The notes: a model not told the origin generated them from the letters alone. DNA of 44,295 nucleotides from Myxococcus sp. (GCA_014879945.1 JACSRE010000099.1:1-44295), one strand, 5' to 3'. Shown: positions 10,535 through 25,222, counted from the first letter of the stretch. Numbers and translations: made by a program.

Positions 10535-12193
10535 ATGACCATCAAGACGCAGCTCGAGAGCCTGTACGACTTCGAGAAGAACCGCCGCGACGCCCGCTGG
10601 TTGATTCAGCCGATGGGGGGCGGCGCGCTCAAGGAGTACAGCTTCGGCGAGGCGATGGGTGAGGCCCGCCGGCTGGCCAGCTACTTCAAGTCACTCAACC
10701 TGCCTGAGAAGAGCAACATCGCGCTGTTCTCGAAGAACACCGCCTGGTGGCTCATCACCGACATCGCCATCTGGATGGCGGGGCACGTCTCGGTGCCGCT
10801 GTACCCGACGCTCACCGCCGAGACGATCGGGCAGATCCTCGACCACTCGGGGGCCCGGCTCATCGTCATCGGCAAGCTCGACGGCTTCGCGGCCATGGAG
10901 CCGGGGATTCCCGCCGCGCTGCCGCGGGTGCTGACGCCGCTGGCGCCCGACACCAGGGGCGAGAAGTGGGCCGACGTGATGGCGAAGCACCAGCCGATGG
11001 CTGAGTCGCCGGTGCGGCCCCGCGACGACCTCGCCACCGTCATCTACACCTCGGGCACCACCGGCGTGCCCAAGGGCGTGATGCACACCTTCGCCACCAT
11101 GATCGCCTCGAAGGGCTTCATGGACCAGCTGCAGGTCACCCAGGACGACCGCATGCTGTCGTACCTGCCGCTCTCGCACGTCTTCGAGCGCACGCTGGTC
11201 GAGACGGGCACCTTCGGGCTCGGGTACCAGGTGTTCTTCGCCGAGTCGCTCGAGACCTTCGTGAAGGACCTGCAGCGCGCGCGGCCGACGCTGTTCGTCT
11301 CGGTGCCCCGGCTGTGGCTCAAGTTCCAGGCCGGCGTGCTCGACAAGATGCCGCCCAAGAAGCTCGACCTGCTGCTGTCGATTCCCATCGTCAGCGGCGT
11401 GGTGAAGAAGAAGATCCTCACCGGGCTGGGGCTCGACGCGGTGCGCTTCGCGGGCTCGGGCTCGGCGCCGATCCCCGGCAGCGTCATCGAGTGGTACCGC
11501 CGCCTCGGCCTCGAGCTGCTCGAGGGCTACGGCATGACCGAGAACTTCTCGTACTCGCACATGACGCGGCCGGGGAAGGTGAAGGTCGGCTCGGTCGGCG
11601 AGGCGCAGCCCGGCGTGGAGCACCGCATCGGCGAGGGCGGCGAGGTGCTGGTGAAGAGCCCCTGCAACACCACCGGCTACTACAAGCAGCCGGAGCTCAC
11701 CAAAGAGCTCTTCACCGAAGACGGCTTCGTGAAGACCGGCGACCAGGGTGAGATCGACGCCGAGGGCAACCTGAAGATCACCGGCCGGGTGAAGGAGCTC
11801 TTCAAGACCTCGAAGGGCAAGTACGTGGCGCCCGCGCCCATCGAGAACAAGCTGCTCACCAACTCGGACCTCGAGCAGGCGATGGTGGCCGGCGCGAACC
11901 AGGGGCAGCCGTTCGCCCTCGCGGTGCTGTCGCTCAAGGCGCGCAACCGCCTGTCGGTGGCCGAGGGCCGGGCCCAGCTCGAGGCCGAGCTGAAGAAGCA
12001 CCTCGACGACATCAACGCACGGCTCGACTCCCACGAGCAGCTCGAGACGCTGGTGCTGGTGACCGACGAGTGGACGGCCGAGAACGGGCTGCTGACGCCC
12101 ACGCTCAAGCTCAAGCGCGCGGCCATCGAGAAGAAGTACGGCCCGCAGGTCGACGTCTGGTACCGGGCGAAGACGCAGGTGCTGTGGGCGTGA
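10535..12193 (+). CDS. Long-chain acyl-CoA synthetase (AMP-binding)
   Basis: A 552-residue ANL-family adenylate-forming enzyme. The P-loop motif is YTSGTTGVPKG (171-181). The A5 motif GYGMTE is at 331-336. The hinge region reads TGDQGEIDAEGNLKITGR, followed by VKELFKTSKGKYVAP, which is the FAA1/FadD15-like form (COG1022) of fatty-acid:CoA ligases. The C-terminal catalytic lysine region GLLTPTLKLKR is present. It activates long-chain fatty acids to acyl-CoA with ATP. Length is slightly short of the roughly 600 of this family but all motifs are present. AGGGGG lies 5 bp before the ATG. The downstream gene overlaps by 4 bp. Confidence 0.92.
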   Translation: MTIKTQLESLYDFEKNRRDARWLIQPMGGGALKEYSFGEAMGEARRLASYFKSLNLPEKSNIALFSKNTAWWLITDIAIWMAGHVSVPLYPTLTAETIGQILDHSGARLIVIGKLDGFAAMEPGIPAALPRVLTPLAPDTRGEKWADVMAKHQPMAESPVRPRDDLATVIYTSGTTGVPKGVMHTFATMIASKGFMDQLQVTQDDRMLSYLPLSHVFERTLVETGTFGLGYQVFFAESLETFVKDLQRARPTLFVSVPRLWLKFQAGVLDKMPPKKLDLLLSIPIVSGVVKKKILTGLGLDAVRFAGSGSAPIPGSVIEWYRRLGLELLEGYGMTENFSYSHMTRPGKVKVGSVGEAQPGVEHRIGEGGEVLVKSPCNTTGYYKQPELTKELFTEDGFVKTGDQGEIDAEGNLKITGRVKELFKTSKGKYVAPAPIENKLLTNSDLEQAMVAGANQGQPFALAVLSLKARNRLSVAEGRAQLEAELKKHLDDINARLDSHEQLETLVLVTDEWTAENGLLTPTLKLKRAAIEKKYGPQVDVWYRAKTQVLWA

Positions 12194-12822
12194 GCCGCCC
12201 TGGCGCCTCACCGCTGGTGGCGGCGGGGCTCGCGGCGCTCTCGCTCGTGGCCCTGGTGCGCTCGAGCTTCGCCGAGCCGCCCCCGATGATGGAGCCGCGG
12301 CCGGTGGCCGAGGTGCTGGCTGCGCTCGAGGCGTCGAAGGCCGACGCGGCGACGATGGCCTCGGTGCGCTGGTACGTCGAGGTGACGCGCGGCGCGGTCC
12401 TGCAGGCGCCGGTGGGGAGCCCGAAGTCGACCCTCGGGCCCTGGGGCGAGAACGGCGCGCTCCAGGCCGCGGAGGACGACCTGCGCGACTGCACGCCGCT
12501 CGCCATTCCCGAGGCGCAGGCGGCCATCGCCCTGCACAAGGAGTACAAAGACGCGCTGCCTCCGATGCTGCGAGGCGTCGCGCTGGCGCATCAGGGCAAG
12601 CTCGACGACGCCGCGGCGCTCTACCGCGCCATGGCCCTGGCCAGCCTGCCTGGCAACTCCTGCCCCAGCGAGCACCCCATGTATTCGCACCGCCGCATCG
12701 GGAGGCTCCAGCGGCTGCTCTCGTGCCTCGAGCGCTGGCAGCCGAAGGCGAACCACGCCCCGGTGAAGAAGGTGCTCGAGCGCGCCAGGGGCTGCGCCGC
12801 GAGGAACAACTCGGTCGGCTGA
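12190..12822 (+). CDS. Small exported protein of unknown function
   Basis: A 210-residue protein from a GTG at 12190 that overlaps the acyl-CoA synthetase stop (GTGA). I choose this start because a signal peptide follows directly (VAAGLAALSLVALVRSSFA, cleavage before EPPP). An upstream ATG at 12070 in the same frame would put the signal inside the protein. The mature part is helical (MLRGVALAHQGKLDDAAALY resembles one TPR unit) with four Cys (DCTPL, NSCPS, LLSCLE, RGCAA) that could form two disulfides. No family recognised. Coupling suggests co-expression with fatty-acid activation, but I see no functional link. Confidence 0.7.
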   Translation: MSRPGASPLVAAGLAALSLVALVRSSFAEPPPMMEPRPVAEVLAALEASKADAATMASVRWYVEVTRGAVLQAPVGSPKSTLGPWGENGALQAAEDDLRDCTPLAIPEAQAAIALHKEYKDALPPMLRGVALAHQGKLDDAAALYRAMALASLPGNSCPSEHPMYSHRRIGRLQRLLSCLERWQPKANHAPVKKVLERARGCAARNNSVG

Positions 12823-13018
12823 GCGGGGCGCCCGTCGTAGACGCAGGTGTGCGACCTGGCGCATCCGCTCGGCAGCATGCACGGGTCGCCCACGCTTAGG
12901 AGCGCCGCGCCGCCGCCCGCGCTCCCGCCACTGGGACGCCGGTCGCGCACAGCGCGTTGGTGCCCGCAGCGCCGGCTCGACGCCTGCCGCCGCGTGAGGC
13001 TCGGTCACGGCGCAGCGC

Positions 13019-13765
13019 TCAGGGCAGGCGGCCGGCGCGCACCGTCAGCGGCCACTCCACCTCGCGCACCGTCTCGGGCGCGCCCCACCGCGACGCCAGC
13101 TCGGCCTCGAAGGCATCGACGAGGTCGCGCCGGCCCGCGCGCCCGGCCGCCGCCGCCGCCGACCAGGTGCCCACGTAGCCCAGCGTCTGGGTGAGGCTCC
13201 ACGCCGCGCGCATCGACAGCTGGGGGAGCGCCACCGGCGCGAACGGGAAGTGCAGCGCGGCGTAGCCGGTGTCGACGTGCCGCCGCTCGGGCGGCCAGAA
13301 GTCCTTCAGCGTCTCGAGCGCGAAGGTGTTGAGGCACGCGTCGAGGTCGGGCCGGATGAACATGAGGCCGTAGGTGACGAGCGCCACCAGGGCGCCGGGG
13401 CGGCCGACGCGCGCGCACTCGGCTGCGAAGGCCTCGAGGTCGAACCAGTGCGCCGCCTGCGCCACCACCACGCAGTCGACGGAGGCGTCGGGCAGCCCGC
13501 TCCGCTCGGCCGGCGCGCAGCGGTAGGTGACGCGCGGCGCCGCGACGGCGTTGGCCACCTGCTCCGCGCTCGCGTCAGAGGCCTCGACGGTGGTGAAGCG
13601 GCGGGCCAGCAGCACCGACAGCTGGCCCGAGCCGCATCCGGCGTCCCACGCGCGGTCGGTCGCGGGGCTCGCGTCGGCCAGGGCGTCGACGAGCGCGAGC
13701 GGGTACGTCGGGCGGTAGGCGGCGTAGGCGCTGGCGTGGCCCGAGAAGTGGTCCTTGAAGCCCAT
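13019..13765 (-). CDS. Class I SAM-dependent methyltransferase
   Basis: A 248-residue cytoplasmic methyltransferase of the Methyltransf_11/25 type. Motif I is WDAGCGSGQ (40-48). The acidic strand-2 residue follows in VEASDAS, and LPDASVDCVVVAQAAHWFD gives motifs II-III. The N-terminus, FSGHASAYAAYRPTYP, is characteristic of trans-aconitate-methyltransferase-like proteins in which the Y-x2-YRP element caps the substrate pocket. The substrate cannot be predicted. It stands alone, 69 bp downstream of the start-distal end of no other gene in its direction except the cytochrome gene ending behind it at 13834, so it is not upstream-coupled by overlap. Confidence 0.85.
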   Translation of the reverse strand: MGFKDHFSGHASAYAAYRPTYPLALVDALADASPATDRAWDAGCGSGQLSVLLARRFTTVEASDASAEQVANAVAAPRVTYRCAPAERSGLPDASVDCVVVAQAAHWFDLEAFAAECARVGRPGALVALVTYGLMFIRPDLDACLNTFALETLKDFWPPERRHVDTGYAALHFPFAPVALPQLSMRAAWSLTQTLGYVGTWSAAAAAGRAGRRDLVDAFEAELASRWGAPETVREVEWPLTVRAGRLP

Positions 13766-13833: not shown

Positions 13834-15900
13834 CTACAGCGAGCGGAGGTAGCCCACCAGGTCGTCGACCTCGCCCGCCGACAGCCGAGAGGTGAGGCCG
13901 TGCCGGTCGGCCTCCTTGCCCATCAGGATGCGGGCCTTGAGCGTGGGCGCGCTGCCGTCGTGGAGGAAGGGCCCGGTGCGCGCGATGCCCAGCAGCGAGG
14001 GCGTGTTGAGGCCGCCGTGGAAGAGGAACTGCTGGCGGTCGGTCACCTCGCCGCGCGTGACGTAGGTGCCGACGTCGTAGAACCGGTTGTCGGTCATCGT
14101 GGTGCCGGCGTGACAGCTGCCGCACGCGGCCTTGTCGAACGCCGCCTTGCCTCGCGCCAGCACGTCGGCCGGCGTCTGGGTGGTGAACGGGTTGTCAGGC
14201 GTAGGCACGGACATGATGAAGGCCATCAGCTGCTGCTCCATCTGCGGCGACGGGCCCTGGCCGCCCATGCGGTCGCGCATGGTGTGCGTCATGAACTGGG
14301 TGACGGTGGCGAACTCGCCGTTCCAGTGGAAGGGCGCGGTCTGGTCGAGCTTCTTGCCGATGAGCGACGGCGTGTTGCGCGGGCCCTCGGTGGTGTTCCA
14401 GACGTGCCCGTCTTCACGCGCCTCGATGTGGCAGGTGGAGCAGCTGATGCCGAGGCCCGGGTTCGTCATGCGCGCGTCGATGGCGCTGAAGAAGAGCTTG
14501 CGGCCCGCCACCACGTTGGCCGGCAGCACGTCGCCGCCGAGCACCTGCACCTGAACCTGGCGCACCACGCCCGCCTCGGCCGACAGCTTCGACAGCGAGT
14601 GGTCGAAGGCGTTGAACACCCACGCCGTCTTGCCATCACCCGCGACGGCGACGCCGGTGGGGCCTGCGCCCACGTTCACCAGCTGCTGGCGCGGGTCGCC
14701 GGGAGCGCCGCGGAAGTCGACCTTGAACCCGCCGCCGACCGTGCCCGAGGTGGGGATGACCGAGACGTTGTTCGAGTCGCGGTTGGCGATGAACAGGAAG
14801 GTGCCCGACGGGTCTCGCGCGATGGCGGTGGGGCCCTGCACCGGCACGCCAGGCACGTTCGACACCAACATCATCGGCGGGCGGTCGGCGATGACGCCGT
14901 CGCACGACAGCACGTCATCGACCTGCGCCGCCCCGGACTCGTCGAAGGTGAGCAGCGCCGGTGCCGCGACCGCCGACGCGACGCCGCACGGGCCGGTGGA
15001 GCCGTACCCCGACGAGCTCCCGTCGGGCGTCGGGTTGAAGCCGCCATTCCCGCCGCCGGGGCCGCCGCCGAGGTTCGTCTCGGTAGGCCGGGTGTTCAGC
15101 ACCGCGTCGGTGGACAGCAGCGCCGCGACGTAGACCTGCGTGCCCTCGGGGTTGGTGGTGATGGCCTCCATGCCGCGCGGCCGCCGCGTCTGAGGGCCCT
15201 GCTGCGGAGGCAGGCGGCTGCCCGCGAAGCCTGCGCTGCCGCCCGCCGCGCCGGTGGTGGTGAGGTTGAGGGCGCTCCGGTTGAGCTGCACGAAGACGTC
15301 GGAGCCGCTCTTCTCGATCTGGCCCTTCACGAGGTCCACCATCACCACGTCGCCCGACTTGAAGAGCGTCACCATCGCCTTCCCGTTCGAGAGCAGGGTG
15401 ATGGCGCGCGGGTCGGGGCCGAGCACCGCCTCCCACTTCACCTGGCGGGTCGCGGTGTCGATGGCCATCAGCGTGCCCACGTCGAGGTCGGTGCGCGAGG
15501 CGCTGTTGACGACGTAGAGCGTCTTGCCGTCGCTCGACGCCGCCAGGCCTACCGGCTCGACGCCCACGTCGATGGTGGCGCTGACCGACGCCTCGCCCTT
15601 GCGCACCACCGAGACACTGCGGCCATAGCGGTTGGCGACGTAGATGGTGTCGTCAGGCGCGACCAACACCTTCTCGGGCGTGCGACCGACCTTCACCTCC
15701 TTGAAAGAGGTCGGGTTCTTGGCGTCGACGATGAAGAGGGTGTCGAGGTCGGGGTCGACGGCGTAGACGAGCGCGTCGTCGCGGCTCATGGCGACCGAGC
15801 CGCTGGCCGAGTTGCCGCCGCCGCCCGGGGTTTCAGGGGCGCAGCCCCACACGGCAGCCATCGAAGCGACCAGCGCAGCGGCGAGGAGACGGTTTTTCAT
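13834..15900 (-). CDS. YVTN beta-propeller / dihaem cytochrome c lipoprotein
   Basis: A 688-residue exported protein with a lipobox (AAVWGC). Residues about 30-440 are YVTN-type propeller blades, for example KVGRTPEKVLVAPDDTIYVA and VGVEPVGLAASSDGKTLYVV, interrupted by a Gly/Pro-rich insert (GGGPGGGNGGFNPTPDGSS). The C-terminal part carries two c-type haem motifs, CSTCH (487-491) and CGSCH (593-597), arranged as in MauG/cytochrome c peroxidase-like proteins, with NTPSL and DGSAPTL segments typical of that family. The propeller is likely a binding platform and the haem part an electron-transfer or peroxidase module. A good RBS (GGGGCTCCTC) precedes the ATG. Divergent from the DoxX-like gene. 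Confidence 0.86.
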   Translation of the reverse strand: MKNRLLAAALVASMAAVWGCAPETPGGGGNSASGSVAMSRDDALVYAVDPDLDTLFIVDAKNPTSFKEVKVGRTPEKVLVAPDDTIYVANRYGRSVSVVRKGEASVSATIDVGVEPVGLAASSDGKTLYVVNSASRTDLDVGTLMAIDTATRQVKWEAVLGPDPRAITLLSNGKAMVTLFKSGDVVMVDLVKGQIEKSGSDVFVQLNRSALNLTTTGAAGGSAGFAGSRLPPQQGPQTRRPRGMEAITTNPEGTQVYVAALLSTDAVLNTRPTETNLGGGPGGGNGGFNPTPDGSSSGYGSTGPCGVASAVAAPALLTFDESGAAQVDDVLSCDGVIADRPPMMLVSNVPGVPVQGPTAIARDPSGTFLFIANRDSNNVSVIPTSGTVGGGFKVDFRGAPGDPRQQLVNVGAGPTGVAVAGDGKTAWVFNAFDHSLSKLSAEAGVVRQVQVQVLGGDVLPANVVAGRKLFFSAIDARMTNPGLGISCSTCHIEAREDGHVWNTTEGPRNTPSLIGKKLDQTAPFHWNGEFATVTQFMTHTMRDRMGGQGPSPQMEQQLMAFIMSVPTPDNPFTTQTPADVLARGKAAFDKAACGSCHAGTTMTDNRFYDVGTYVTRGEVTDRQQFLFHGGLNTPSLLGIARTGPFLHDGSAPTLKARILMGKEADRHGLTSRLSAGEVDDLVGYLRSL

Positions 15901-18632: not shown

Positions 18633-19718
18633 TTACTCCCCGTCGAAGACGCCCCGCTTGGCCTGGTCGCGCTCGATGCTGCGGAAGAGGGCGCCGAAGT
18701 TGCCCTCGCCGAAGCTGAAGTGGTTCTTGCGCTGGATGATCTCGATGAAGATCGGCCCGATGAGGTTCTTGGTGAAGATCTGCAGCAGGTAGCCCTTCTC
18801 GTCGCCGTCGACGAGCACGTTGCGCCGCTGAATCTCCTCCCGGTCCTCCGTCACCTGGGGGAACTTCTGAAACACCTCGCGGTAGTACTCCGCGTCGATG
18901 TCGAGCATCTCGACCGGCGTGCCCTCGAGCTTCTTGAGCGAGGCGAGGATGTCGTCGGTCATGAACGCCAGGTGCTGAATGCCCGGGCCCTTGTACTCCT
19001 CGATGTACTCGTTGATCTGCGACTTCTTCTCGTCGGCCTCGTTGATGGGAATGCAGAACCGGCCGCAGGGCGAGCGCAGGGCGTACGACGTCAGGCCCGT
19101 CTTGGCGCCGCGAATGTCGAAGTAGCGCACCTCTTCGAAGCCGAAGACCGACTTGTAGAAGTTGGCCCACGTCTGCATCGTGCCCTTCTCGACGTTGTTG
19201 GTGAGGTGGTCGATGAGCGTGAAGCCCTTCGACGGCACCAGCTCGGGCGTGGCCAGGGGCGCGAAGCCCAGCGACTCCCAGGTGGAGCGCTCGTAGCGGT
19301 CGATGAAGTAGATGAGCGAGTCGCCGATGCCGAAGATGGCGGGCACGGGCTTGCCGTCGCGCATCAGATCGCCCTCGGGGCGGGCCTTGGCGCCGCGCGC
19401 CGTCGCCTCGGTGAGCGCCTTCTTCGCGTCGCGCACCCGCCAGCCCATGGCGCAGATGCTGGGGCCGTGGAGCTGACCGAACTGCGCCGCGAACGAGGCG
19501 GGCGCGCGGTTCACCAGGAAGGCGATGTCGCCCTGCTGGTAGAGGTCCACGGGCCGCGAGGTGTGCCGCATCGTCTTCGAGAGGCCGAAGCCCTTGAAGA
19601 GCGCGTCGAGCTTCTCGGGCTCCGACGAGACGAACTCGACGAACTCGATGCCGTCGAGGCCGCAGGGGTTGAACGCAGAGACCTGAAACTGTGCCGGGGC
19701 AATCGCGCGGGTCGTCAT
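18633..19718 (-). CDS. hppD: 4-hydroxyphenylpyruvate dioxygenase
   Basis: A 361-residue enzyme of normal family length that converts 4-hydroxyphenylpyruvate to homogentisate with Fe(II) and O2 in tyrosine breakdown. The three iron ligands are visible: His171 (FTLIDHLTNNV), His249 (GPGIQHLAF) and Glu326 (GPIFIEIIQR). The C-terminal gate helix GNFGALFRSIERDQ matches known enzymes. The ATG at 19718 overlaps the stop of the upstream hmgA-like gene (ATGA), giving a coupled tyrosine/homogentisate operon. In myxobacteria this pathway also feeds pigment precursors. Confidence 0.96.
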   Translation of the reverse strand: MTTRAIAPAQFQVSAFNPCGLDGIEFVEFVSSEPEKLDALFKGFGLSKTMRHTSRPVDLYQQGDIAFLVNRAPASFAAQFGQLHGPSICAMGWRVRDAKKALTEATARGAKARPEGDLMRDGKPVPAIFGIGDSLIYFIDRYERSTWESLGFAPLATPELVPSKGFTLIDHLTNNVEKGTMQTWANFYKSVFGFEEVRYFDIRGAKTGLTSYALRSPCGRFCIPINEADEKKSQINEYIEEYKGPGIQHLAFMTDDILASLKKLEGTPVEMLDIDAEYYREVFQKFPQVTEDREEIQRRNVLVDGDEKGYLLQIFTKNLIGPIFIEIIQRKNHFSFGEGNFGALFRSIERDQAKRGVFDGE

Positions 19719-20824
19719 TTCTGCCAGCTCCTCCAGTAGTCGGTCAGCTCCGTGCGCTCGACGGCGGCGCACGGCTTCAGCGGGTTCTTGGTGTCGAGCA
19801 TCACCGCCACCTCTTCGGTGCGGGTCGCCTTCGCGGCGCGGTCGAACGCCTTCTCTTGCGGGCCGTGGTGAATGCCCTGCGGGTGGAAGGTCAACATGCC
19901 GGGCGCGATGCCTGCGCGGCTGAAGAACTCTCCCGAGTGGTAGAAGAGCACCTCGTCGAAGTCGATGTTCGAGTGGTAGAACGGCACCTTCAGCGCGGCC
20001 GGGTCTCCGTTCTCGAGCGGGCGCGGCAGGAACGTGCAGATGACCGCGTTGCGCATGATGAAGGTCGAGTGTGCCGACGGCGGCAGGTGGTAGCGGTCGC
20101 TCGAGACGGGCCGAATGTCGCGCACGTTCAGCTTCTGCACCGTCAGCGTGCCCTTCCAGCCCACCACGTCGTGCGGGTTGTACGGGTAGAAGACCTTCGT
20201 CACCTCGCCCAGCCGCAAGATCCGCAGCTCGAACTCGCCGCGCGCGTCGGCGGTGAGCGACGACTTCTCGTCGGGTGACGGCACCTGAATGACCGCCGGG
20301 TCGAAGAGCGCGTGCTGCCCCAGCATGCCGCGGTCGGGGAACGAGACCTCGCTGAACGACTCCACCACCAGGAAGCGCGAGGTGCTGGTGGGCAGCAGCC
20401 GGTACGCCGTGCCGCGCGGCACCTGCAGGTAGTCGCCGGCCTCGTACGGCAGCGGCCCGAAGTCCGTCTCCATGCGCCCGGCGCCCTCGTGCACGAAGAG
20501 CACCTCGTCGGCGTCGGCGTTGCGGAACAGGTACGCCATCGGCTTCGACAGCGTCGTCTGGCACAGCCGCACGTCGGCGTTCTCGAGCACGCCCTGGCGG
20601 CCGTCGAGCCAGTCGGTGGTGATGGCCTCCATCTTCCGCAGGTCGTAGGCGCGCGGCTTCAGCGGCCCCTCGATGCGCGTCCAGCCCACCGGCGCGTGCG
20701 TGCGGTACAGGTGCGCGTAGCGGCCGAAGAAGCCGTTGCGGGCGTACTCCTCTTCCACCGTGCCCTCGGGGAGGCCCACATGGGCCTGCTGCGCGACGCG
20801 TCCTCTGACGTAGGGAATGTCCAT
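19715..20824 (-). CDS. hmgA: Homogentisate 1,2-dioxygenase
   Basis: A cupin-type dioxygenase of about 369 residues that opens the homogentisate ring to maleylacetoacetate. Recognisable family segments are RNADADEVLFVHEGAG, GDYLQVPRGTAYRL, VPFYHSNIDFDEVLFYHSGE and MLTFHPQGIHHGPQ; the last two carry the His/Glu iron ligands. It is shorter than the enterobacterial/human form (about 440) and matches the shorter class found in several bacterial phyla. I choose ATG 20824 (MDIPYVRGR). A TTG at 20836 would add four residues. Neither has a strong RBS. The stop overlaps hppD. Confidence 0.92.
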   Translation of the reverse strand: MDIPYVRGRVAQQAHVGLPEGTVEEEYARNGFFGRYAHLYRTHAPVGWTRIEGPLKPRAYDLRKMEAITTDWLDGRQGVLENADVRLCQTTLSKPMAYLFRNADADEVLFVHEGAGRMETDFGPLPYEAGDYLQVPRGTAYRLLPTSTSRFLVVESFSEVSFPDRGMLGQHALFDPAVIQVPSPDEKSSLTADARGEFELRILRLGEVTKVFYPYNPHDVVGWKGTLTVQKLNVRDIRPVSSDRYHLPPSAHSTFIMRNAVICTFLPRPLENGDPAALKVPFYHSNIDFDEVLFYHSGEFFSRAGIAPGMLTFHPQGIHHGPQEKAFDRAAKATRTEEVAVMLDTKNPLKPCAAVERTELTDYWRSWQK

Positions 20825-20989
20825 GATGCGGCGCAATGTGCAGGCGGCGCGGCCTTGAAGGAAAGCACAGAGTTTTGCGCGACTTTGTCAGTCAGGAGCA
20901 CAGCTCCCTTCAGCGCCGCTGATGGCTCGCGACTTCGCGCGGCGGCGGTGGTTCAGTGCGCGTCGGGGAACTTCGCGCGGAGGCGGTCA

Positions 20990-22258
20990 ATGGCCTGGGC
21001 CCGGGTGGTGGTGGTGGTGACGTTGGCGGTCGGCGCGTTGGCGCTGGCGCAGTCACCGGCGGACCAGGCGGCCGCCGTCTACGAGCAGGGCAAGGCGCTC
21101 TACGACGCGAAGGACTACCCGGGCGCGCTCACGAAGTTCGACGAGGCCGCCGCGCTGGAGCCGACCAGGGCGCGCTGGCACTACAACCGCGGCCTCGCCC
21201 TCAAGAAGCTCAAGCGCGACGACGACGCGCGCGCCGCCTTCGAGCGGTCGCGCCAGCTCGAGCCCGACTACAAGCGGGCTGAGATCGACCAGAAGCTCTC
21301 GGAGCTGCGCAGCTCCGCCGCCAGCAGCCCTGACTCCAGCTCGAACGACTTCACCATCATCATCATCGGCGCCGTCATCGCGCTGCTCGGGCTCCTCTCG
21401 GTCGGCGGGGTGCTGTGGAAGGTGGGCAAGGCGCTCTTGGGCTTGTTCGTCACCTTCGACGCCAGGCCCGAGGCCGGCGCGCCGAAGAAGCGCGCGGCCG
21501 TCAACAACCCGCCGCAGGCGCTCGACGCGCTCTCACGACGGCTCCCGCGCACCGCCGAGGCGCTGGCGCGCGTCGAGCACGGGCTGTCGAAGGGTGAAGA
21601 CCCGGTCGCGCGGGGGCACGCCGACCGCGCCGCCACCAACCTCGCCAGCGTGCGCCGGGGCCTCGCCGCCGCGACGCGAAACGAGCGCCCGGTGGCTGAG
21701 CTGTCCGCCGCGCTCGACCGCGCGCAGGAGGCGGCCGAGCTCGGCCAGCAGCGGCTGGTGGCGCTCCATGGAGAGCAGGTTCGCCACGTCAGGGGGCCGC
21801 GCGCCGGCTGCTTCTTCTGTGCGCGCGCGCTGCCCACGGCGAAGGCTGGCGAGCCGGTGCAGCTGCGCGCGGCCGCCGGGCTGACCACCGTGGCCGCGTG
21901 CCCGACCTGCGCCAGGCGGGTCGCCGCCGGCACCCCTCCGCCGGTGTTGATGGTGGACGGCGACCGCCGGCGCCACTGGAGCGAGGTAGACGACCTCGAC
22001 CCGTACCTCGAAGCCCACGCGCCGCGCGCCAGCGCCGTCGAGGTGCCGGCGTGGAACGTGATGAACGCCGGCGCGGCGCTGAACCCCCTGGCGACCTTCG
22101 CGGGCGGGGCGGTGCTGGGCGCCCTGGGCGCGGCGGCGGTCGGGCGGGTGCTCGACCTCGAGTCGCTCAAGCAGTCAGACCTCGCGAGCCTGGCGGCCCA
22201 GGCGTCGGCGAAGGCGGCGACCTCGAAGCGCTCCACCGAGTACTCGGACCACTCCTGA
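20990..22258 (+). CDS. TPR / zinc-ribbon membrane protein, first gene of the GT-rSAM operon
   Basis: A 422-residue protein from ATG 20990, chosen because a hydrophobic export signal follows (VVVVVTLAVGALALA). Residues about 24-100 form two to three TPR units (EQGKALYDAKDYPGALTKFD and YNRGLALKKLKRDDDARAAF) outside the membrane. A Ser-rich linker leads to one membrane helix (121-143). The cytoplasmic part has a helical segment (about 175-265) and then a four-Cys zinc-ribbon pattern, C274-x2-C277 and C304-x2-C307. Near the C-terminus is a Gly/Ala-rich hydrophobic hairpin (370-387). No family recognised. It overlaps the glycosyltransferase by 1 bp (TGATG). It may be the membrane anchor or scaffold of the following enzymes. 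Confidence 0.78.
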   Translation: MAWARVVVVVTLAVGALALAQSPADQAAAVYEQGKALYDAKDYPGALTKFDEAAALEPTRARWHYNRGLALKKLKRDDDARAAFERSRQLEPDYKRAEIDQKLSELRSSAASSPDSSSNDFTIIIIGAVIALLGLLSVGGVLWKVGKALLGLFVTFDARPEAGAPKKRAAVNNPPQALDALSRRLPRTAEALARVEHGLSKGEDPVARGHADRAATNLASVRRGLAAATRNERPVAELSAALDRAQEAAELGQQRLVALHGEQVRHVRGPRAGCFFCARALPTAKAGEPVQLRAAAGLTTVAACPTCARRVAAGTPPPVLMVDGDRRRHWSEVDDLDPYLEAHAPRASAVEVPAWNVMNAGAALNPLATFAGGAVLGALGAAAVGRVLDLESLKQSDLASLAAQASAKAATSKRSTEYSDHS

Positions 22259-23328
22259 TGCGCGCGCTCTTCTACGCCGTCAACGGCCTGGGCCTGGGGC
22301 ACGTCACGCGGTTGTTGGGCATCGCCCGCGCGCTGCGCCGCGCCGAGCCCGACGTCGAGGTGTTGTTCCTCACCTCGTCCGAGGCTGACGGCGTCTTGCA
22401 CCGCGAGCGCTTCGCCGCGGTGAAGCTGCCCTCGAAGACGATTCGCGAAGAGGTGGGGCTGCAGAAGACGCGCTACCTGAAGCTGGCGCAGACGGTGACG
22501 TGGAACACCATCGCCGCCTTCGACCCCGACGTGCTGGTGGTGGACACCTACCCGATGGGCAGCTTCGAGGAGCTCATCCCCGCGCTGCGGTGGCGGCAGA
22601 AGAACGTCTTCGTGTTCCGGGAGCAGCGCCCCAACGCGCCGGGCATGCCGCTGCTGCAGGCCACGCTCCCGCTCTACGACGCCGTCATCGTGCCGCACCC
22701 CGCCCTCGAGGCCGTCGGGCCCGTGCCGGAGCCGTCGAAGCTGCGCGCCGTCGGGCCCATCCTGGTGCGCGAGCGAGACGAGCTGCGCGCGCGAGACGAG
22801 GCCCGCCGTTCGCTCGGGCTCTCGCTCAGCGAGACGCTCGTCTACGCGTCGTTCGGCGGCGGGGGCGAGCCCGAGTCGTTCGAGGCGCTGCGAGCGGCGG
22901 CCGAGGCCGTGAAGCGGCTCCCCAACGCACGGCTCGTCGTCGGCGCGGGCCCGCTGTTGCGCGAGCTGCCCGAGCTGCCCGGCGCCGCGGTGCTGCGCGG
23001 CGTGTACCCGATGCTCGAGTGGCTGCCGGCCTTCGACGCGGCCCTCAGCGCCGCTGGCTACAACTCGGTGCACGAGCTCCTCTTCGCCGGGGTGCCGTCG
23101 GTCTTCGTGCCCTTCGAGCGCGTGCTCGACGACCAGGAGCGGCGCGCGCGCGCCCTCGAGGCGCAAGGGGCCGGGCGGGCGGTCACCTCGCTCGACCCGG
23201 GCGTGCTCGGCGCGGCCCTGAAGTCGGTGATGGAGAACCGCAAGGGCGTCGCCGCCGCCGCCAGCGCGCTCGTGCCCGCCAACGGCGCCGCCGCCGCGGC
23301 CCGCGTGCTGGTGGAGGTCTGCCGATGA
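22258..23328 (+). CDS. GT-B glycosyltransferase, MurG/GT28-like
   Basis: A 356-residue GT-B-fold protein. The N-terminus has the GLGHVTRLLGIARAL motif (Gly-x-Gly-His acceptor loop) seen in MurG, MGDG synthases and related transferases. The C-terminal donor domain shows VYASFGGGGEPESFEAL, LPNARLVVGAGPLL, VYPMLEWLPAFDAALSAAGY and NSVHELLFAGVPSVFVPFE, which carry the nucleotide-sugar-binding pattern. No signal or membrane helix, so it works at the inner face of the membrane or in the cytoplasm. It is coupled by overlap to the gene before (1 bp) and after (4 bp). Donor and acceptor cannot be read from sequence. Confidence 0.88.
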   Translation: MRALFYAVNGLGLGHVTRLLGIARALRRAEPDVEVLFLTSSEADGVLHRERFAAVKLPSKTIREEVGLQKTRYLKLAQTVTWNTIAAFDPDVLVVDTYPMGSFEELIPALRWRQKNVFVFREQRPNAPGMPLLQATLPLYDAVIVPHPALEAVGPVPEPSKLRAVGPILVRERDELRARDEARRSLGLSLSETLVYASFGGGGEPESFEALRAAAEAVKRLPNARLVVGAGPLLRELPELPGAAVLRGVYPMLEWLPAFDAALSAAGYNSVHELLFAGVPSVFVPFERVLDDQERRARALEAQGAGRAVTSLDPGVLGAALKSVMENRKGVAAAASALVPANGAAAAARVLVEVCR

Positions 23329-24353
23329 GCGAGCTCCACCGCGAGCGCTTCAGGGGCTTCCTCGAGCAGAAGGTGCGCGCGGGCCCCGAGACGGTGCACG
23401 TCGACGTCACCAACGTCTGCAACCTCGACTGCGTCACCTGCTGGAACTACGGCGGCTCGCTCGACGCGCCCAAGACCATCGCGTGGAAGCGCCAGCGCAT
23501 CGACCCGGTCGTCTTCCACCGCGTGCTCGCCGAGGTCGCCGAGGCCGGCGCCGAGCGCATCGTGCTCTCGGGCGGCGGCGAGCCGTTCACCCACCCCGAC
23601 ATCGAGGGCTTCATCGGCGCGGTGAAGCAGAAGGGCCTGCGCCTCACCGTCATCACCAACGGCACCTTGTGCGACTTCGCCCGGCTCAAGGCCCTGGGCG
23701 TCGACCAGCTCCTGCTCAACGTCGCGTCGGCTTCGCCCGAGACCTACGTCGCGTACCACCCCAACCAGCCGAAGGAGACGTTCCACCGCCTGGTGGAGGG
23801 CTGTCGAACGCTGCGGGGCCGCACCGCCGTCAACATGGTGCAGGTCATCAACGGCCTCACCGCGCACGAGGTGGTGGCGATGGTGGAGCTCGCCGCCGAG
23901 GTGGGCGCGCGCGTCAGCTTCAAGGTGGGCGACCTGCCGCAGGGCACCGCGCACTTCGCCCTCACCGCCGCGCAGCGCGAGGCGTTGCTGGCCGAGGGGC
24001 TCCCGGCCGCGCGCAAGACGGCGAAGCACCTCGGCGTGCGCCACAACCTCGACGCCTTCGAGCGGCAGCTGCGCGGCGTGAAGGAGCAGCAGCCTCCCTG
24101 CTTCGCCGGCTACCTCTACTCGCGCATCTCGGTCGACGGCCGCGTCTTCTTCTGCTGCGCGCACATCGACGCGGGGCACCTGAACGAGGGGCCGTTCGCG
24201 CAGGTGTGGAGGAGCCCCCGCTACGACGCCGTGCGGCAGACGCTGCACCGCGGCGGCTCGTTCGCGGCCTGTCAGCGCTGCGGCAAGCACGACATGAACG
24301 TGGCCGCGCAGCGGGAGCTCGACGTGCTGCTCTCCGAAGGCGCGCTCCCGTGA
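23325..24353 (+). CDS. Radical SAM enzyme with C-terminal SPASM-like Cys cluster
   Basis: A 342-residue radical SAM protein. The 4Fe-4S motif is C32-x3-C36-x2-C39 (CNLDCVTCWN), followed by the SAM-binding GGGEPF motif (about 83-88). After the barrel, a second set of Cys occurs: QPPCFAGYL, VFFCCAHID and ACQRCGKHD. This resembles the SPASM/twitch region that holds auxiliary clusters in peptide-modifying enzymes. The start ATG at 23325 overlaps the glycosyltransferase stop (ATGA). It is not closely similar to the next radical SAM protein, so the pair is not a recent duplication. The substrate may be a peptide, sugar or lipid. Confidence 0.88.
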   Translation: MSELHRERFRGFLEQKVRAGPETVHVDVTNVCNLDCVTCWNYGGSLDAPKTIAWKRQRIDPVVFHRVLAEVAEAGAERIVLSGGGEPFTHPDIEGFIGAVKQKGLRLTVITNGTLCDFARLKALGVDQLLLNVASASPETYVAYHPNQPKETFHRLVEGCRTLRGRTAVNMVQVINGLTAHEVVAMVELAAEVGARVSFKVGDLPQGTAHFALTAAQREALLAEGLPAARKTAKHLGVRHNLDAFERQLRGVKEQQPPCFAGYLYSRISVDGRVFFCCAHIDAGHLNEGPFAQVWRSPRYDAVRQTLHRGGSFAACQRCGKHDMNVAAQRELDVLLSEGALP

Positions 24354-25222
24354 GGGCCACCGTGTCGTGGAACATCGTCGGCGGCTGCAACTACCGGTGC
24401 ACCTACTGCGTGCAGAAGCACGCGCCGGGCCTGGGCACCCCGAGCGATGAGGAGCTCGAGGGCGCGCTCACCACGCTCGAGGCGCTGCCCGGCGTCTGGG
24501 AGTTCAAGATCTCGGGCGGCGAGCCGTTTCTCCTGAAGCGCCTGCCCGAGGTCGCCGCCCGCCTGGCCGCGAAGGGGCACCTGGTCTCGGTGCTCACCAA
24601 CCTCTCGGCGCCGGTGCGCGTGCTGGTGGACTTCATCGAGGCGGCGGGGCCGAAGCTGCGCACCTTCTCGTGCTCCCTGCACCGCGAAGAGACGACGGAG
24701 GACGAGTTCCTCGAGAAGGCGAAGGCCGTGAAGGCCGCGCTCGCGCCGCTGCCGAAGGCCAGCTTCGTGGTCAACAGCGTGGTGGTGCCGGGCACCGTCG
24801 ACGTGGTGGGCCACAGCCGCCGGCGCTTCGAAGGTGAAGGGCTCAAGTTCTACCCGCAGCTGATGCGGCGCGACGGCAAGGCCGTCACCTACGACGAGGC
24901 CGACGCGCAGCGGCTCGAGGAGCACTTCGACGACCTGGTGGGCCCCGGCCAGATGAACCGCGGCTACAAGCTCACCGGCAAGCTGTGCCACGCGGGCTCG
25001 AAGTACTTCATCATCCACCCGCGCGGAGACGCCTTCAGCTGCTACCCGGGCAAGCGCTTCGGAGACGGCCACCTCGGCAACGTCTTTCGTGGCACCCTCG
25101 CGCTGCGCGATGGGCCGGCGCCGTGCCCGTACGAGGTGTGCCCCTGCACCGTGCCGCAGAACCGGGGCATCATCGAAGGGTTCGGAGCGAACGGCGAGGT
25201 CGCTCCCCCAGAGGCCGATTGA
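24350..25222 (+). CDS. Second radical SAM enzyme with C-terminal Cys cluster
   Basis: A 290-residue radical SAM protein from a GTG at 24350 that overlaps the previous stop (GTGA). The cluster motif C13-x3-C17-x2-C20 (CNYRCTYC) lies very near the N-terminus, and ISGGEPF (about 58-64) is the SAM motif. C-terminal Cys (KLCHAG, SCYPGKR, CPYEVCPC) suggest at least one auxiliary cluster. HPRGDAFSCYPGKRFGDGHLG has the SPASM-family turn in which G-x-x-x-C-Y-P ends with H/D-LGN. It is the fourth gene of the overlapping operon. A hydrolase lipoprotein begins 16 bp after its stop and may belong to the same transcript. Confidence 0.87.
   Translation: MRATVSWNIVGGCNYRCTYCVQKHAPGLGTPSDEELEGALTTLEALPGVWEFKISGGEPFLLKRLPEVAARLAAKGHLVSVLTNLSAPVRVLVDFIEAAGPKLRTFSCSLHREETTEDEFLEKAKAVKAALAPLPKASFVVNSVVVPGTVDVVGHSRRRFEGEGLKFYPQLMRRDGKAVTYDEADAQRLEEHFDDLVGPGQMNRGYKLTGKLCHAGSKYFIIHPRGDAFSCYPGKRFGDGHLGNVFRGTLALRDGPAPCPYEVCPCTVPQNRGIIEGFGANGEVAPPEAD

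Follow-up and report, generated by a model that had tools for sequence, protein, structure and literature searches.

Mycofactocin is recognised through an invariant C-terminus that is encoded beside a radical S-adenosylmethionine (SAM) enzyme and a glycosyltransferase (PMC3023750, PMC7491314). By analogy, its maturation appears to be the closest functional counterpart of a four-gene cassette that we analyzed in Myxococcus sp. The window, i.e., the whole stretch of DNA under analysis, comprises 44,295 nucleotides (GCA_014879945.1 JACSRE010000099.1:1-44295), and the cassette consists of four consecutive plus-strand reading frames, A, B, C and D, at positions 20990-25222. A literature search returned no description of this four-gene set. 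Protein A ends in a near-invariant three-residue tail, which the first-pass annotation, made from the sequence alone, had overlooked. Judging from sequence comparisons, we consider it about an even chance that the cassette is a horizontally mobile unit for the modification of protein tails, in which the tail of A would be the substrate of B, C and D.

Each of the four genes overlaps the next, and the overlapping operon described by the first-pass annotation was confirmed in all frames and at all three junctions. Gene A (20990-22258) encodes a 422-aa membrane protein, and its TGA stop (22256-22258) shares one base with the ATG of gene B at 22258 (TGATG). Gene B (22258-23328), for a 356-aa GT-B glycosyltransferase of the MurG/GT28-like type, meets gene C at an ATGA junction, with the start of C at 23325 and the end of B at 23328. 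Gene C (23325-24353) encodes a 342-aa radical SAM enzyme with a predicted twitch/SPASM-type auxiliary site, and a GTGA junction joins its end at 24353 to the GTG start of gene D at 24350. The product of gene D (24350-25222) is a second radical SAM enzyme of 290 aa, distantly STM4011-like.

Protein A of the window terminates in Tyr-Ser-Asp-His-Ser (22241-22255), of which the last three residues (22247-22255) form the putative substrate or recognition site. DHS ends 16 of 17 A proteins and EHS the remaining one, while the length of the tail-bearing A proteins ranges between 409 and 479 aa. A is the least conserved member of the cassette, with a mean pairwise identity of 47% and a minimum of 31%, whereas its last three residues are 96% identical. 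The opposite holds for B, C and D, in which overall identities of 74%, 72% and 76% fall to only 39%, 45% and 24% over the last three residues. The tail sits behind a variable linker, and its codons vary synonymously (TCC, TCG, TCT and AGC for Ser; GAC and GAT for Asp); it is therefore conserved as protein and not as DNA. Furthermore, it is retained where A and B do not overlap, the two genes being 86 bp apart in L007 and approximately 80 bp apart in the betaproteobacterium G536. These gaps, together with the codon variation, rule out conservation of the DNA driven by the overlap. Among the other proteins of the fetched loci, approximately 6% end in Ser and 9% have Asp or Glu at position -3, and both features together occur in 2 of about 245 unrelated proteins. 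A search of the whole genome of the window with the pattern [FYW]xDHS-stop (TCN serine codons) gave a single match, at the end of gene A, and no other tail-bearing candidate substrate. The residue two before the tail Asp is Tyr, Trp or Phe in most tails, Ser in both betaproteobacteria described below, Leu in G053 and Met in G154. An aromatic-x-Asp three-residue cyclophane is a feature of YxD/triceptide peptides; this structure was rejected for A, since an aromatic residue is not required at that position. Based on these comparisons, we infer that the cassette enzymes act on the [D/E]-x-S tail, or at least dock onto it.

D genes with 73-92% identity were found in 13 other genomes of the same order, all from one family (Myxococcaceae). 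B and C are encoded beside D in all 13, and A occupies the same position wherever the contig extends far enough, the locus of G053 lying at a contig end. The A-B-C order is syntenic in 14 other Myxococcaceae genomes, in one of which (G133, same genus) D is missing and appears to have been lost. At this locus (L094, 7787-8884 and downstream), C has an altered, longer C-terminus and A retains DHS. All four genes are also present in two betaproteobacteria (L011/G195 and L093/G536), with 56-65% identity to the window's B, C and D and 32-35% to its A; a third betaproteobacterial contig (L012) begins inside the cassette and carries D only. Three sampled sets, comprising 300, 151 and 369 genomes around these betaproteobacteria, yielded no further cassettes, so the cassette is rare there, as expected after transfer. 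In a tree of C, the two betaproteobacterial proteins group together beside the Myxococcaceae and away from distant Myxococcota forms; the rooting of this tree is arbitrary and it does not give the direction of transfer. When the called genes of all fetched loci were clustered, A, B, C and D emerged as the only widely shared families, with flanks that differ between genera. The gene order is conserved across two phyla, which makes the arrangement more than chance. Conserved synteny of the four genes across Myxococcota, which the first-pass annotation had put forward as the mark of a system, was indeed observed: A-B-C, nearly always with D, stay together while the flanks change. A-B-C(-D) constitutes a genuine mobile cassette that is complete in itself.

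Three Myxococcota genomes of other families (G185, G155 and G186) encode B, C and one or two D-like enzymes in the same order; the G186 contig stops inside the first D-like gene, and one D-like copy in G155 is divided between two frames, possibly due to an assembly error. In the place of A these genomes encode two proteins. The first is a small protein of 113-132 residues, without a Pfam match, whose gene (L066, 15692-16033, minus strand; L068, 5434-5832, plus strand; L065, approximately 14460-14789, minus strand) precedes that of the second, a coiled-coil protein of 414-431 residues. The latter has no clear membrane helix, and its profile shows no similarity to that of A (hhalign probability 0.2%). 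These distant coiled-coil proteins terminate in DVS, DAS and DAS, after linkers of varying length. In addition, B of the distant cassettes contains an extra C-terminal domain of approximately 190 residues with no confident Pfam match; B genes of this form lie at 11462-13108 (minus strand) in L065, 12722-14392 (minus strand) in L066, 7149-8783 (plus strand) in L068 and 10629-12302 (plus strand) in L126.

Across 195 Myxococcota genomes, the presence of either A or the coiled-coil protein tracks that of the cassette; searches with the profiles of the two proteins returned cassette-linked copies and a few others. Two complete paralogues have no B nearby, and their termini are EQG (G083) and KKT (G155). 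We also noted a truncated A-like remnant (L123, G098:C119, 5454-6257), which is interrupted by an in-frame stop and has no cassette in its vicinity. In G154 an A-like protein with the tail DRS stands immediately before B (L122, 7675-10572), C is located on another contig and D was undetected. The A-like protein of this genome (7675-9486) has about 200 extra residues, without Pfam assignment, between its TPR (tetratricopeptide repeat) part and its membrane helix, and the isolated C-type radical SAM gene, with 49% identity, lies at 9233-10387 of L092 (G154:C10). In G192 a coiled-coil homologue immediately before B ends in ISS, thus keeping the Ser and losing the acidic residue; no C or D was found in this genome, whose top radical SAM match (1.6e-12) is an ordinary family member. 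The genome sets are samples that include many draft assemblies, and the absence of C and D in G192, and of D in G154 and G133, rests on those assemblies. Altogether, terminal Ser accompanies B in 22 of 22 cases and an acidic residue at -3 accompanies C in 21 of 21, with the acid lost in one case of B without C. The independent cases are A in Myxococcaceae and Betaproteobacteria, the A-like protein in G154, and the coiled-coil protein in two or three families; over these approximately five lineages, the pairing of Ser with B and of the acid with C is suggestive only. The near-invariant tail follows the presence of the enzymes, and for this reason A is more likely to be their substrate or docking partner. 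The first-pass annotation had suggested that a modified glycan, glycolipid or glycopeptide could be built at the inner membrane, with the TPR protein as scaffold; the idea of a membrane glyco-modification stands, and the passive scaffold gives way to a protein with a near-invariant tail.

The N-terminus of A is a hydrophobic, signal-like segment, followed by a TPR pair (residues 31-94, 21080-21271; Pfam TPR_2, 1.9e-9, with TPR_1 and TPR_11), one strong membrane helix at approximately residues 123-141 (21356-21412; Kyte-Doolittle hydropathy 2.7) and a 2+2 Cys ribbon (C274, C277, C304 and C307; 21809-21910) that is invariant among relatives. The TPR domain, membrane helix and four-Cys ribbon noted by the first-pass annotation are all present, while its single helix has to be qualified by another, less strongly hydrophobic segment near residue 367. 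Because of this segment, it is uncertain which side of the membrane the tail faces.

B matches Pfam Glyco_tran_28_C (7.5e-8, 33 bits against a cut-off of 22) and stays below the MurG family threshold (TIGR01133, 39.9 bits against 250). C and D match radical SAM Pfam models (1.1e-19 and 1.7e-11, respectively), and both contain a partial TIM barrel and the CxxxCxxC cluster motif, which is invariant in the alignments (C32, C36 and C39 of C, 23418-23441; C13, C17 and C20 of D, 24386-24409). The extra C-terminal Cys that had been noticed earlier, alongside the MurG-like transferase, are likewise invariant among relatives: C259, C277, C278, C316 and C319 in C (24099-24281), and C213, C231, C259, C264 and C266 in D (24986-25147). 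Pfam SPASM is matched by C (4.1e-10), and D stays under the cut-off (0.007). The arrangement C259-x17-C277 plus C316-x2-C319, kept in all relatives of C, would be the single-site layout expected of twitch enzymes; BtrN is a known example of an enzyme whose twitch cluster is fully ligated (PMC6231123).

Neither C nor D reached any NCBIfam family, or any equivalog, above its cut-off, and the match to a housekeeping pathway that the first-pass annotation had named as a refutation was absent. The top NCBIfam match of C is TIGR04317 (78 bits, 380 needed), and that of D, extending over almost its entire length, is the STM4011-like NF038073 (5.7e-14; 52 bits, 200 needed). C also aligns over nearly its full length with the MftC model TIGR03962 (33 bits, 2.8e-8; cut-off 265), and D gives 15.8 bits (0.0048) with the HxsC model (cut-off 267.9). 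Viperin-like defence (pVip) was rejected for both enzymes, each scoring about 38 bits against the NCBIfam prokaryotic viperin cut-off of 180, with merely partial PADLOC pVip matches. The structure nearest to the AlphaFold2 model of C (mean predicted local distance difference test, pLDDT, 89.8) is BlsE (Z 27.3, root-mean-square deviation 2.6, 291 residues aligned), followed by the RiPP (ribosomally synthesized and post-translationally modified peptide) enzymes SkfB (Z 24.0) and SuiB (Z 22.2). BlsE is a radical SAM enzyme with cytosylglucuronic acid as substrate (PMC3715490). For the model of D (pLDDT 79.2), the nearest structures are BlsE (Z 16.9) and DesII (Z 16.3), with many others within 2-3 units. 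These fold matches, drawn from models, establish the fold of C and D and would permit chemistry on a sugar as well as on a peptide. A lone D-like radical SAM gene, 29-31% identical, was observed in a polysaccharide-type cluster of G153 (L067, G153:C239, 4006-4959), directly preceded by a gene that we take to encode a UbiA-type prenyltransferase.

Searches of plasmid records gave no match at E 1e-20, and viral contigs gave nothing useful beyond a single fragment of 24% identity. Upstream and divergent from the cassette, the minus-strand genes at 18633-20836 of the window presumably resemble those for 4-hydroxyphenylpyruvate dioxygenase and homogentisate 1,2-dioxygenase; this neighbourhood is common to same-genus genomes only.

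Based on these observations, we tentatively propose a new post-translational protein modification, in which the GT-B enzyme would place a sugar or other group on the C-terminal Ser of A for one or two radical SAM enzymes to remodel, the same [D/E]-x-S tag being carried by the unrelated coiled-coil protein. The order of steps and the chemistry on the tail are our inference. B would add a sugar, most simply onto the C-terminal Ser; C, with one auxiliary Fe-S site, would remove a hydrogen atom from either the tail or the sugar bound to it; and D would carry out a second, dispensable step after C. The large protein would replace the leader of a RiPP precursor, and the finished group would stay attached to the membrane-anchored TPR/Cys-ribbon protein or to the soluble coiled-coil protein.

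Several points weigh against a modified tail. The tail could be a docking motif and not the modified site, and the fold matches of C and D, coming from models, leave the substrate unfixed. No RiPP recognition element (RRE) or peptidase was recognised in the cassette, where no RRE-specific model was applied; with Pfam models, neither A-D nor the small protein of the distant cassettes gave a match to an RRE/PqqD-like domain. The correlation of Ser with B and of the acid with C depends on one genome, G192, and tails within a family are related by descent, leaving few independent cases. Radical SAM enzymes work in the cytoplasm, and the residue-367 segment of A leaves the cytoplasmic exposure of its tail in doubt. 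The docking alternative, which comes close to the scaffold view of the first-pass annotation and which we regard as rather unlikely, takes the [D/E]-x-S tail for a short linear motif recruiting C, D or B to A as a scaffold; the actual substrate would then be a glycan, a glycolipid or a small molecule synthesized at the membrane. A is membrane-anchored and has TPR repeats, the structures nearest to C and D are the sugar-acting BlsE and DesII, and the distant D-like enzyme of G153 lies among polysaccharide-type genes, all of which would suit docking. However, the cassette contains no other glycan genes (nucleotide-sugar synthesis, flippase or polymerase), the tail-bearing protein of the distant cassettes has no clear membrane helix, and conservation limited to the last three residues suits a modified terminus at least equally well.

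A classical RiPP system with a small precursor is not favoured, as no fifth gene recurs across genera among the called genes of the fetched loci; a crude screen of small flanking open reading frames was swamped by GC-rich antisense frames. The first-pass annotation was correct, as far as tested, that no small precursor is visible, but RiPP-like chemistry is not thereby excluded, since modification can also take place on the tail of a large protein. In a RiPP-like variant with release, which we consider improbable, C, D and B would modify the tail and a host peptidase would free a small glycosylated product, such as a redox cofactor or signal, as in mycofactocin. The parts are of that type, i.e., an invariant precursor C-terminus, a radical SAM/SPASM enzyme and a glycosyltransferase (PMC3023750, PMC7491314), and C weakly matches the MftC model, far under its cut-off. 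Nevertheless, the cassette has no MftB/RRE-like, MftE-like peptidase or dehydrogenase gene, and a membrane protein of 422 residues would be an expensive leader to use only once. More improbable still would be an unrelated tail, i.e., a localisation, stability or translation-coupling signal conserved with the operon by chance. The TGATG overlap of A and B in most genomes could impose a constraint at the DNA level, whereas tails kept without the overlap, with synonymously variable codons, argue for conservation as protein; the identical tail type on an unrelated coiled-coil protein and the unlinked paralogues that lack the tail also speak against it.

If the tail of A is indeed modified by the cassette enzymes, radical SAM and glycosyl chemistry would act on the tails of full-size proteins, beyond small precursor peptides, and RiPP searches for short precursor reading frames would therefore miss such systems. 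In [D/E]-x-S, radical SAM chemistry would have a tail tag that is transferable, and a C-terminal tag this short, easily tested by mass spectrometry, could serve site-specific protein labelling. The proposal provides a concrete substrate hypothesis for two radical SAM families without an assigned function.

In comparison with known systems, the cassette resembles mycofactocin in that genes for a radical SAM enzyme and a glycosyltransferase accompany the gene of a ribosomal product whose C-terminus is nearly invariant. It differs in the size of that product, MftA being a precursor of approximately 30 residues and the cassette protein a large membrane or coiled-coil protein; in the terminus, which is [D/E]-x-S in place of the core Val-Tyr; in the glycosyltransferase, MftF being GT2 and B GT-B; and in having two radical SAM enzymes and no MftB, MftE or MftD. 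The His-Xaa-Ser (Hxs) system of Haft and Basu reportedly acts on targets that carry His-x-Ser motifs. In both it and the cassette, the radical SAM maturases occur as a pair and the short target motif has Ser as its last residue (PMC9062424), but the His-x-Ser motifs of the Hxs targets contrast with the single Asp-x-Ser at the extreme end of A; moreover, the cassette includes a glycosyltransferase and D is far under the HxsC cut-off. The STM4011 family gives the best NCBIfam match of D, which nevertheless scores far under the family cut-off. SkfB, SuiB and anSME, the last being an example of residue modification within a whole protein, resemble C in fold (Z 20-24) and in their SPASM/twitch arrangement; they differ in that no N-terminal RRE domain is visible in C or D, and in lacking a glycosyltransferase partner. 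The substrates of the cytosylglucuronate decarboxylase BlsE, of BtrN and of DesII are small sugars or aminocyclitols, and these enzymes show approximately 18% identity and have another gene context. Nonetheless, BlsE is the top structural match of C, BlsE and DesII are those of D, and the four-Cys layout of C would be appropriate for a single twitch-type cluster with full ligation, like that of BtrN.

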